A stretch of 64,000 nt of DNA. Source: a virus. This document shows positions 24,440-64,000 of the stretch, one piece after another. The DNA is taken from positions 24,452-88,451 of IMG/VR virus record IMGVR_UViG_3300031712_000003. One strand, written 5' to 3'. Both the position numbers and the translations under genes were made by a program. Below the pieces are notes generated by a model. The model did not search any database. It worked only from the letters and a program-made list of their open reading frames with translations, and was not told the origin of the DNA. How positions within the stretch are numbered: the stretch's first letter is position 1; each line of letters opens with the position of its first letter.

Positions 24440-24473
24440 GGTCAATCTCCGTAACTGTCAGATCCTAAGTACT

Positions 24474-60361: not shown

Positions 60362-61003
60362 TCACAACCCGGACAACTCGTCGCCGCCACGATTTTCCCA
60401 TTGAGGGAGTTTCACTGCTCTAAGTATGTTGAAGTTCTTACTAGCAATGGATGAGAACACCTTGAATAGAGGCTCAAATGTTGTGTCCTCAGTGGCCTTT
60501 CGCTCAAGTAGCTTCACCGCCCCAAAGAAACGATGTCTCACTCGACCCTGAGTAAGCTCTAGCTGCATTGCTACTTCACTCTGGCAAGTGGTCTTCCACA
60601 TGCCAACCAATATATCAACATCAATTGGCTTGAGAGGTACAAATGGTAGGTTATACCGCATCTCGCTCTCGGTGATCTGAGGTATTGATAGCAAGAACTT
60701 GATCCTTTGAAGGCCCCGATCCAATCGATAGCTGATTGCCGCCTGAGTTACATCGAAGATCTCGGCTATGTCTGCCTGACGTTTCTTCTGTATGTAGTAC
60801 AACTCAATCAGGTCAGCTTCCCTGTCTGGTATCCTGTCGAGGAGAGGTTTGACCTGCGTTTCGAAGTGCAACGAGGATAGGATAGAGACAACCTGCTCCT
60901 CATCCACTTCCTCAATTGGTTCGTCGAATAGCGGCTCTGGCGATGCAAAACGGTTTGCCAACTCTGCAGGGTCAACCGAGATCGTAAAGCCAGCGCTACC
61001 CAT
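60362..61003 (-). CDS. Sigma-factor-like transcription regulator
   Basis: The 213-residue protein has a sigma-region-4-like helix-turn-helix at residues ~58-104: IPDREADLIELYYIQ, KRQADIAEIFDVTQAAISYR, LDRGLQRIKFL. A second HTH-like unit lies at ~128-168 (QSEVAMQLELTQGRVRHRFF). There is no convincing region 2, so it resembles late-gene sigma-like proteins of phages more than a full sigma-70 factor. It may direct RNA polymerase to phage promoters, for example the recurring ATGTAAAT sites. GAGG is close before the ATG, and it follows the NusG-FEN gene by seven bases. Confidence 0.75.
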   Translation of the reverse strand: MGSAGFTISVDPAELANRFASPEPLFDEPIEEVDEEQVVSILSSLHFETQVKPLLDRIPDREADLIELYYIQKKRQADIAEIFDVTQAAISYRLDRGLQRIKFLLSIPQITESEMRYNLPFVPLKPIDVDILVGMWKTTCQSEVAMQLELTQGRVRHRFFGAVKLLERKATEDTTFEPLFKVFSSIASKNFNILRAVKLPQWENRGGDELSGL

Positions 61004-61009
61004 AATACC

Positions 61010-62860
61010 TCAGCTATTCTTGGTGAACCCAGCCCCAACAGGGGTCTGGAAGAAGGTTGAAATCAAGATCTCAGGTTGAATGGAACACTGCTTTAGAGCG
61101 TCGAAAGCGCTATCAAAGTTCGGAGCTGCCTCCGTAATCTGGTAGTCTAGGTCCGTTCTAAGAGCCATAAGTTCCACATTTAATCGGGCTTGTTTCTCAA
61201 AGCCTCGGATCTTGTCGTACTGAGTCTTGGTGACCCCGGCTAAGCTTGAAGCGTAGACCCCATCGATCGATCCGTGCGTTGTTAGAAGGGACGCCAGGAT
61301 CTTACGAGGTACTCTTGGGACCCCGGGCAGATTGTCCGATGTGTCACCTGAGAGTGCTCTGAGGTGAACCATCAACCGGGGCGGGACCCCATACTCTGAC
61401 ACAACTCTATCGGGGTCGTAAAGGGTCTCAGGTCGACTTCCTTGCTTTGGTACTAAAAGTAAGTCAGTGTATGTAACCAACTGTAGGAAGTCACGGTCTG
61501 TAGAGATGATTATGTTGTGTTTACCTTTTAGCTTGTTCTTCAGTAAACAAGCGATAATATCGTCTGTTTCCTCGTCTGGATTATGGACTTGTGAGATGCC
61601 AAACATTGGAAGCATAGACTGAAGTCGTGACATCTCATCGTGTGTACCCTGACTATGCTCTGGCCTGCCTGCCTTGTAGTCTGGATACATGTCAACCCTA
61701 CGCTGCTTAGAGCCATCCCATACAACATACATATTAGCTCTCTCAAAACGCTTCTTGAGTGCAGCTAAGCTACGCAAGAACCCAAATACTAGTGCAGTTG
61801 ATCTGCCCTCACTATCGGTTAGCTGATCAGGGATGTTCCTTAGAGCATTGACAACCCTATAAGCTAGATTATGCCCGTCGAACACGATGTTGTTAGCCAT
61901 ATCTGGGTTCCAATCTGGTAGTGACCTCTCAAGTTGGTCACAATCACTGTGAATCTGTGAGTATCTAGCTATGAAGCTGTCGAGTAGGTCTAGTGCAGCT
62001 GAAGAGTTGGCTAGTTGTGAGACCTCTGGCAATTGAATCAGAGGTAAGTAGAAGAAAAACCCTGACCTTGATATGAATGAGTTCATTTGCTGAACTTGAT
62101 GAAACTTTTTCAGCAGAGGCTCGCTATCGGATCCCGTGAACATCTCAGGTGCCACTGGGTCTACTAGTAACTTCCTGGCTCTTCTAAAAGTATCAAGCCA
62201 CGAGGTGATTCTTAGGTACCTGTCATACTTAGCTTGTAAGGGTTTTTCGGAACTAACCAAATACTTATTCGGAGCCTTGGCACGATCAATCCACTGCTTA
62301 ATCCTGAACAACTTAGTTAGGAACGGGGAGTTGTACTGCTGGTCTTCGGTATTAGAGACATACTTCAAAAAGCTCCGAGGTAGTGTGATCAGCGCCTGCT
62401 TCGACCTGAGCTTAACGAATACTTGAACGGAGTTATTCTCAGGGATGTTCTCAATTACCTTGCCAACAATCCCGCTGTAGGCCCCACTCATGACCAAGAC
62501 TTCGTCGCCTACCTCAATCCCTTGTTCAGTCTCAATGTGAAGCTGAAGGCGCATCTGTTCGATGGAGCTATCAGGCACCGCCGATATCCTACGAATCCGA
62601 TGATCATACACTGTCAGGATTGAGGTAATATACTTGGAACCCTCCAACTTGAAGTATACGGGGTCAGGTTGTGTACGTCTAACGAAGATGTAGTTCTCAA
62701 TTAACTTGTAAACTGACCTAGAATGCCCGCGTGTGATGGTTGAGGCTGGTACAAATACATCCTTCAAGCTCTTGATAGATTTTCCAACAGCTTTTCTGAG
62801 GACCTCTGGGTCCTCATCCTCACCTTGAGGGCTTAACTCTAGGACAACCCACTCAGGCAT
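61010..62860 (-). CDS. NusG-like (NGN-KOW) protein fused to 5'-3' exonuclease/flap endonuclease
   Basis: One 616-residue frame joins two unrelated modules. Residues ~1-105 are an NGN-like domain (EWVVLELSPQG, LKDVFVPAST, YKLIENYIFVRR) and ~112-165 a KOW domain (EVGDEVLVMSGAYSGIVGKV), the layout of NusG/Spt5 transcription elongation factors. Residues ~165-320 are a helical linker. Residues 321-616 are a FEN/5'-3' exonuclease with all metal motifs: VFDGHNLAYR, VWDGSKQRRVDMYPDYKAGR, ETDDIIACL, STDRDFLQLV and LSGDTSDNLPGVP. AGGGGG precedes the ATG, and the start overlaps the clamp-loader stop. A second ATG (M321) with GGAA seven bases upstream lies exactly at the FEN border and could yield FEN alone. 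Confidence 0.88.
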   Translation of the reverse strand: MPEWVVLELSPQGEDEDPEVLRKAVGKSIKSLKDVFVPASTITRGHSRSVYKLIENYIFVRRTQPDPVYFKLEGSKYITSILTVYDHRIRRISAVPDSSIEQMRLQLHIETEQGIEVGDEVLVMSGAYSGIVGKVIENIPENNSVQVFVKLRSKQALITLPRSFLKYVSNTEDQQYNSPFLTKLFRIKQWIDRAKAPNKYLVSSEKPLQAKYDRYLRITSWLDTFRRARKLLVDPVAPEMFTGSDSEPLLKKFHQVQQMNSFISRSGFFFYLPLIQLPEVSQLANSSAALDLLDSFIARYSQIHSDCDQLERSLPDWNPDMANNIVFDGHNLAYRVVNALRNIPDQLTDSEGRSTALVFGFLRSLAALKKRFERANMYVVWDGSKQRRVDMYPDYKAGRPEHSQGTHDEMSRLQSMLPMFGISQVHNPDEETDDIIACLLKNKLKGKHNIIISTDRDFLQLVTYTDLLLVPKQGSRPETLYDPDRVVSEYGVPPRLMVHLRALSGDTSDNLPGVPRVPRKILASLLTTHGSIDGVYASSLAGVTKTQYDKIRGFEKQARLNVELMALRTDLDYQITEAAPNFDSAFDALKQCSIQPEILISTFFQTPVGAGFTKNS

Positions 62861-64000
62861 TTCCCCCTCTACTCCAGAGTTCAGCGAACCCTCGGCGCCA
62901 AGCTTCGTGACTAATTAAGTCCCTATCGCTTGTACTGGTTTCGTTAGGCGTTAGATTCAGTTTCTTTCTCTTACCAGGGTTTGCTTCTGGGATGACCTGT
63001 GTGTCGTAGATGGTCATTGCCCGAGGATCATCAGAGCCCAAATTACCGATAGGCATATCGCCACTAGGCATTTGCTTGCTACTTGGGGGCTCCTCAGGTG
63101 ACTGCTGAGCCTCTACCACTGGTGGTGGGCTCGACGTCTCAGCGGGCTTTGGTGTTGGAGCTAGTGTACTCACCGGAGCTTGAGTAGCCACGGGGGCAGA
63201 TACTTGTAGGACTGAACCTTGCGACACAGGCTGAGCTGAGATGAAAGATCCCTTCACCCCAGAGAACGCCAGTGCAGTTAGATCACAAATCAGTCCAACT
63301 TGAGTTACGTACCTGGACCTCAAGAAGTGGCTTGCGATCTTGATCAGCTCAACACCGTAGAGCTTATAGACCTCTACAGCCAGTAACTTATCTGTGAAAG
63401 AGAAGTCCGCTCCCATCCCGTTTGCTAACCGGAAAGAGTTCATAGCGGCCTCCGAGAGACCCGATACTACCTCCTCAGCGGTCATTCTCTCACAAGCTTG
63501 GTCAACAAGCTGGAGCGCCTTCTTGGTGTCAGAGGTTAAGTTGAGTAGTATGTGGTAATAAGTGGAGATCACAGACAGATTGAGGTGCTCTCGAACGTTG
63601 TCCAGAGTGACCGGCCCAACCTGAGCGATCATCTCAAGACGACTCACCACGTCACGGACATGACCACCGGCGTAGTCAATAACCGTTAGGATACCATCGT
63701 CATCGAACTCTACCTTCTCTGCTTCTAGGATACGCCTCATCCGAACTAGGATGTCTTCGCGCGTAACCTTTCTAATCCCATACTCTTCACATCGAGATCG
63801 GATAGCACCACGAACCTTTTCAGGTTCCGTGGTGCAAAACATCCCAATCATCTTGCGCTCTTCCAGCGGCTTGAGTAGGACGTCCTGAGCATCCTTAGAC
63901 ATCCGATGGCACTCGTCAAAGAGGTAGATTCTCTTTGAAGCCCCCACTACCGAGAAGGGGAGGCTATCTACTATCCTTCGAATCTGATCAATTCCACCCT
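62853..64000 (-). CDS. DNA polymerase clamp-loader ATPase, DnaX-like (5' end outside window)
   Basis: The frame is open to the right edge. The first visible residues are GIDQIRRIVDSLPFS, followed by IYLFDECHRMSKDAQDVLLK, the Walker B (FDECH) and following helix of DnaX gamma/tau, then CTTEPEKVRGAIRSRCEEY, the sensor 1 and arginine-finger (SRC) region. A helical lid domain follows, then a Pro/Ala-rich tail with an acidic end. The Walker A part lies beyond the window. It loads the sliding clamp on primed DNA. Its stop lies eight bases inside the next gene, so translation is coupled to the NusG-FEN gene. Confidence 0.9.
   Translation of the reverse strand, partial: GGIDQIRRIVDSLPFSVVGASKRIYLFDECHRMSKDAQDVLLKPLEERKMIGMFCTTEPEKVRGAIRSRCEEYGIRKVTREDILVRMRRILEAEKVEFDDDGILTVIDYAGGHVRDVVSRLEMIAQVGPVTLDNVREHLNLSVISTYYHILLNLTSDTKKALQLVDQACERMTAEEVVSGLSEAAMNSFRLANGMGADFSFTDKLLAVEVYKLYGVELIKIASHFLRSRYVTQVGLICDLTALAFSGVKGSFISAQPVSQGSVLQVSAPVATQAPVSTLAPTPKPAETSSPPPVVEAQQSPEEPPSSKQMPSGDMPIGNLGSDDPRAMTIYDTQVIPEANPGKRKKLNLTPNETSTSDRDLISHEAWRRGFAELWSRGGNA

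Follow-up and report, generated by a model that had tools for sequence, protein, structure and literature searches.

To our knowledge, the NusG proteins constitute the only universally conserved family of transcription factors. Their NGN domain contacts RNA polymerase at its clamp helices and gate loop, while partners are recruited by their KOW domain (PMC7819879). The additions known from bacterial members are domains, such as DII of T. maritima NusG, and include no enzyme (NusG review, PMC7819879). Nucleases operating together with such factors at the elongation complex are known as separate proteins acting on RNA: Xrn2 works with Spt5 (PMC11695829) and FttA with archaeal Spt4/5 (PMC11616081). 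A tie of another kind is seen in the late transcription of T4, where replication proteins and the host RNA polymerase are connected through the phage factors gp33/gp55 and the sliding clamp gp45 (PMC7892883). Here we describe, from a group of uncultured huge bacterial viruses, a protein in which a NusG-type NGN-KOW module and a complete FEN-type nuclease lie on a single chain. The original prediction was aware of no earlier description of such a joining, and our search of the PMC full-text literature found neither a NusG-nuclease nor a NusG-FEN fusion, while a jumbo-phage survey reports FENs with no mention of NusG or KOW; the fusion thus has no described precedent in the literature searched. 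Further, we know of no enzymatic NusG of this kind from any cell or virus.

The gene lies in a stretch of 64,000 nucleotides (hereinafter the window) corresponding to positions 24,452 to 88,451 of the IMG/VR virus record IMGVR_UViG_3300031712_000003. We confirmed that the ORF is intact: it runs on the minus strand from an ATG through 616 codons without an internal stop, as expected from the single uninterrupted frame originally proposed. The end of the upstream clamp-loader gene overlaps the start of the fusion by 8 nt. Neither RNA families nor tRNAs were found within the window. The features of the locus are, in the order of transcription:

62853..63998, minus strand: DnaX/gamma-like clamp-loader gene, with its 5' end outside the record (ORF, domain and PHROG matches)
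62863..62870, minus strand: Shine-Dalgarno-like AGAGGGGG ahead of the fusion ATG, rated strong (sequence)
61010..62860, minus strand: NusG-FEN fusion gene, 616 aa (ORF, domain matches, intact copies, identical or related, across many contigs)
62531..62860, minus strand: NGN domain, aa 1-110 (Pfam, PDB, profile, model and Foldseek matches)
62357..62530, minus strand: KOW domain, aa 111-168 (PF00467 over the cut-off; beta-barrel strand order in the model)
61901..62356, minus strand: linker, aa 169-320, predicted helical (model, alignment)
61898..61900, minus strand: M321 codon, directly ahead of the FEN domain (alignment of relatives)
61388..61891, minus strand: FEN N-terminal resolvase-like domain, aa 324-491 (PF02739, Foldseek, invariant acids)
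61130..61387, minus strand: FEN C-terminal SAM-fold (H3TH-type) domain, aa 492-577 (PF01367, Foldseek, D506 and D509 invariant)
61049..61066, minus strand: C-terminal motif LISTFF, aa 599-604 (motif count in fused relatives)
60362..61003, minus strand: sigma region-4-like gene with two r4-type HTH stretches (domain matches)

The N-terminal part displays the succession of NGN and KOW domains that marks the NusG/Spt5 family. In Pfam searches with the fusion protein, the KOW profile (PF00467) matches aa 117-148 above its cut-off (E 1.3e-5) and the NusG profile (PF02357) matches aa 4-104 slightly below it (E 0.004); at E 0.01, just 18 of the 41 fused members are matched by the latter. A PDB search with the single sequence recovers T. 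maritima NusG (2lq8) over aa 4-160 (E 8.5e-5), and a profile of 63 N-terminal sequences reaches the same structure at 7.3e-11 along with many NusG/Spt5 chains. The PHROGs family of phage 'transcription antiterminators' covers aa 3-163, and an exonuclease family is matched too. Residues W4, P38, Y57 and F59 are unchanged across the 63 NGN sequences; this conserved core and the domain order are shared with bacterial NusG/Spt5, from which the phage protein differs in being divergent, phage-encoded and extended by a nuclease. The AlphaFold2 model of the N-terminal part alone (mean pLDDT 86) shows an NGN-like order of elements followed by that of a KOW barrel, and Foldseek against the PDB places it with NusG, RfaH and Spt5 (best E about 4e-9). 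The whole-chain TM of this model against NusG structures is only about 0.4, a value probably lowered by a different orientation of the two small domains relative to each other, and its NGN-KOW assignment is best regarded as carried by the E-values and the order of elements. Pfam, the 63-sequence profile and the model hence converge on NusG for the N-terminus, as had been proposed.

In the C-terminal half, PF02739 matches aa 325-491 (E 5.8e-31) and PF01367 matches aa 492-577 (E 1.3e-15), with both domains found in all 41 distinct fused proteins. At the FEN metal sites we checked nine positions in the alignment of these proteins, and the carboxylates D328, D382, E431, D433, D434, D455, D457, D506 and D509 are invariant in 41/41. 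The resolvase-like N domain, the SAM-fold/H3TH C domain and the metal-site carboxylates that characterize the FEN family are thus all present, and the earlier reading of a complete FEN with its acidic motifs stands. A full-length AlphaFold2 model built with 41 fused relatives has a mean pLDDT of 81, with values mostly >90 in the FEN and about 85 in the NGN-KOW part, and renders the linker as helical at lower confidence. Foldseek, named as a check in the original prediction, retrieves for the whole chain the structures of M. smegmatis FenA, ExoIX, Taq and T5 FEN. The likeness to FEN/PolI-type exonucleases (M. smegmatis FenA, E. coli ExoIX, the N-domain of Taq/PolI and T5 D15) encompasses both Pfam domains, the fold and the checked carboxylates. 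In contrast to them, the phage FEN sits behind an NGN-KOW module, rather than before a polymerase or alone, and bears an extra C-terminal tail with an [IL][LV]xxFF motif; by sequence, the phage FENs also group apart from those sampled from bacteria. FENs of the PolI type serve to take off 5' flaps and RNA primers, and the RNA strand of a hybrid can also be attacked by them.

The linker joining the two parts is weakly conserved (mean 21% identity over aa 175-318) and ranges from 100 to 203 residues among relatives. Pairwise dN/dS is about 0.01-0.10 for NGN, KOW and FEN where estimable, and 0.09-0.22 for the linker, with synonymous sites being saturated in several of the pairs. The M321 position matches the start of the separate FEN genes of relatives and is an ATG, GTG or TTG codon in 27 of the 31 fused relatives having a residue there, suggesting that it is probably a vestigial FEN start or one still in use. 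Internal initiation at this codon could yield free FEN; a consistent Shine-Dalgarno sequence was not found for it among relatives. In the C-terminal tail, the pattern [ILVMA][ILVME]xxFF is present in 31 of the 41 fused relatives, as against 0.34 expected after shuffling, with the strict pattern missing from 10 of the 41. A near form of the motif is present in two of the 272 C-termini of one genome (G002), the fusion itself being one of them. The motif resembles a docking peptide that might bind the clamp; compared with the standard bacterial beta-clamp pentapeptide consensus, no exact match was found.

Full-length copies with 100% identity occur in other IMG/VR samples (L001, L002), further fused relatives in IMG/VR share 44-82% identity with the window protein, and a 512-kb contig (L015) encodes one at 53% identity. 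We gathered loci by searching with the sigma-r4 gene that is conserved downstream, and retained the best 80 of 143 matches. The 81 loci classified comprise 53 with the fusion, 14 with adjacent nusG and fen genes, 13 with NusG alone and one that is cut, counts which are not population frequencies, since the loci were ranked by how similar they are to the window. The 53 fused loci represent 42 distinct proteins, about 32-82% identical, and the search for the same architecture in other phages thereby finds it conserved in dozens of huge-phage contigs. In the adjacent-gene relatives, nusG and fen are separated by short overlaps or gaps, and small genes can intervene between them. Among the deposited phages searched, the fused form was not found, and LR745208.1, from an uncultured 485-kb phage, is the only one to possess the NusG part, which is present alone with the FEN absent from the whole record. 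Two scans of bacterial genomes likewise did not find the fused form among the matches listed; the second recovered ordinary PolI/FEN genes, with a NusG-like ORF in 0 of the 80 loci kept, again among the matches listed.

In the NusG-domain tree, the 42 distinct fused rows together with L061 and L075 form one group (89/73), which adjoins the adjacent-gene clade (100/100) and lies apart from the NusG-alone group. The FEN tree places the phage FENs on one side and 23 bacterial FENs on the other (100/99), and the FEN of L117, a locus with separate genes, groups with the fused FENs. The FEN of L075 is nested within the fused group as the sister of fused L058 (100/99), which marks it as a genuine split that came later; its stop and start codons overlap as ATGA at the nusG/fen junction. 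L061 (the same separate-gene row as L020, contig 3300037882_001001) is nested among the fused forms in the NusG tree and basal in the FEN tree, and the NusG and FEN frames diverge precisely at an A7 run (L020 3640-3702); given this conflict and the junction, a natural split, an ancestral state, slippage or a sequencing error are all possible. In L075, and perhaps L061, the parts occupy separate chains, making the covalent link dispensable there. Thus, all stages (alone, adjacent, fused and, in at least L075, later split) are present among the relatives, a series that cleanly illustrates how domains can fuse within an operon. The simplest account would be that fen was inserted behind a lone nusG, followed by one fusion and one or two splits, and, the trees being unrooted, the direction of the first steps is our reading of them.

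The conserved gene order around the fusion is clamp loader, NusG(-FEN), sigma-r4, Ig-like, a small gene and a 499-aa gene, and LR745208.1 matches the order of the fusion phages with NusG alone. The sigma-r4 gene is kept in at least 80 huge-phage loci, always near nusG, with the NusG gene closely upstream. The original prediction had placed the fusion between a clamp loader and a sigma-like gene; the former holds, and the latter (60362-61003) stands with respect to region 4, having two region-4-like HTH stretches, but a domain search found no region 2 in it, leaving it without the pairing of regions 2 and 4 that defines Sigma-70. L098, L100 and L101 have a tandem pair of sigma-r4-like genes behind their lone NusG gene.

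PF02739 is present exactly once in each of the 17 tested FEN-bearing records, each time as part of the fusion or next to nusG, and in 0/4 of the NusG-alone records. A family-A DNA polymerase is encoded in 11/12 records, with the 5' nuclease absent from the polymerase, and RNase HI was detected in 0/15; as the records are often fragments, such absences, here and below, are provisional. No RNA polymerase beta' (PF00623, PF04997) was matched in the records searched, which speaks against a phage-encoded RNA polymerase as the partner; the NusG part must therefore use the host enzyme, if it acts as a NusG. The DnaN clamp had no match by Pfam (PF02767); a weaker PHROG match points to a DnaN-like clamp in 5/14 records, with none detected in 9/14, and in G002, G007 and G009 this gene lies about 6-7 kb from the fusion. 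G002 codes for primase-like, DnaB-like, UvsX, ligase, delta'-type subunit and DnaN-like clamp genes, the last at L031:8689-9939. A cluster in this genome (L031/L032, 152-191 kb) brings together a primase-like protein, the DnaN-like clamp, SbcCD-like, UvsX and RuvC-like proteins, a Dda-like helicase, an NAD ligase, ribonucleotide reductase, a delta'-like subunit and groEL. We considered a split-intein clamp loader in G002 and dropped it, the product of the second gene resembling a subunit of the delta' type.

We posit, with a probability of roughly 0.45, that the protein is bifunctional, being a NusG docked on the host RNA polymerase with a tethered FEN that couples the removal of flaps, primers and R-loops to transcription and replication. 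Going by what is known of the family, the NGN-KOW module would dock on the host RNA polymerase at its clamp helices, and the long helical linker would tether it to the only FEN-type 5' nuclease of the phage, which would carry out the removal of RNA primers, 5' flaps and RNA:DNA hybrids lying beyond the reach of the phage family-A polymerase. The tether and the possible C-terminal clamp-binding peptide would hold the nuclease where transcription meets replication, such that R-loops and flaps could then be cleared in cis from phage DNA that is replicating and heavily transcribed. The fusion itself would have arisen as nusG and the following fen merged within one operon. While the anatomy, conservation and ancestry of the fusion and the uniqueness of its FEN are established, we only infer that the protein binds RNA polymerase and the clamp, acts as a nuclease and couples the two functions; the original suggestion, in which the transcribing RNA polymerase is linked to the processing of flaps or R-loops, would fit the genomic evidence. 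The fuller version, in which a NusG factor with a built-in nuclease rides the host RNA polymerase, binds the phage clamp and, wherever transcription and replication run into each other, removes R-loops and flaps in cis, is a more tentative proposition. Such a protein would share with Spt5-Xrn2 and FttA-Spt4/5 the partnering of a nuclease with an NGN-KOW factor on the elongation complex; those partners are separate proteins with an RNA substrate, whereas the phage link is covalent and the nuclease FEN-type. A further comparison is with T4, its late-transcription set of gp33/gp55 and gp45 and T4 RNase H; in the fusion phages, the clamp-loader, clamp and sigma-like genes lie together. This comparison concerns roles, not homology to gp33 or gp55, and the clamp contact of the fusion is putative.

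Almost as likely, and hence the main rival to coupling, is a bifunctional chain whose parts do two independent jobs, namely NusG antitermination or elongation and FEN primer removal, after stop loss between translationally coupled neighbours, with the tether fixing only stoichiometry. The short overlaps or gaps of the adjacent-gene relatives, the re-splitting of L075 with its ATGA overlap and the start-type codon retained at M321 all speak for such an operon fusion, as does the linker, whose variation in sequence and length, like the split relatives L075 and perhaps L061, counts against coupling. The inexact match of the C-terminal motif to the beta-clamp consensus, its absence from 10 of the 41 proteins, the 9/14 records in which the clamp went undetected and the free FEN that M321 could yield weigh against the coupled reading too. 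However, 42 distinct proteins, some only about 32% identical, retain the fused state, with one or two splits only, the FEN is never found elsewhere in the tested genomes, and the fused clade keeps the link, while small genes can separate nusG from fen in the adjacent-gene relatives.

A more specialized role in transcription-primed replication, wherein the NusG part would recognize the elongation complex at R-loop origins made by RNA polymerase and the FEN would trim or remove the primer transcript, is unlikely: the presence of primase-like and DnaB-like genes makes ordinary priming likely, although the operon shared with the clamp-loader gene and the nearby clamp and replication genes would suit such a role. 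The parallel is T4, whose replication is believed to begin in this manner at middle promoters. Less probable still is torpedo-like termination or RNA decay, with the nuclease degrading nascent or antisense RNA at the RNA polymerase, as the nuclease is of the PolI/FEN class, its nearest structures being bacterial FEN, ExoIX and PolI, and the known substrates of this class are flaps, nicks and hybrids on DNA. The precedents that favor it are the known Spt5-nuclease partnerships (PMC11695829; PMC11616081). We assign a negligible probability to an assembly or annotation artefact: one relative (L020/L061) does have its parts in different frames at the A7 run, but the full-length copies that other samples contain at 100% identity and the 42 distinct fused proteins, intact in independent contigs, rule out a chimera, assembly join or missed frameshift.

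Transcription-replication collisions and R-loops have long posed a question for cells and viruses alike. Should the coupled reading hold, a primer- and R-loop-removing enzyme could sit on the transcribing RNA polymerase in these viruses, and the NusG family would gain an enzymatic extension. A direct and simple test system would then be on offer in this natural covalent link of an RNA-polymerase-bound factor to a flap/primer nuclease, which many lineages of huge phages have kept.

Two insertions were observed at related loci. The DnaX-like gene of LR745208.1 (L039 6161-8047) carries an intein-like insert in the middle of its ATPase domain (PF14890 and HINT matches, aa 153-280). At another locus (L006 3018-4444), a TnpB-like protein (Cas12f1-like TNB domain, OrfB_IS605) with apparently broken frames lies between the sigma-r4 and Ig-like genes.
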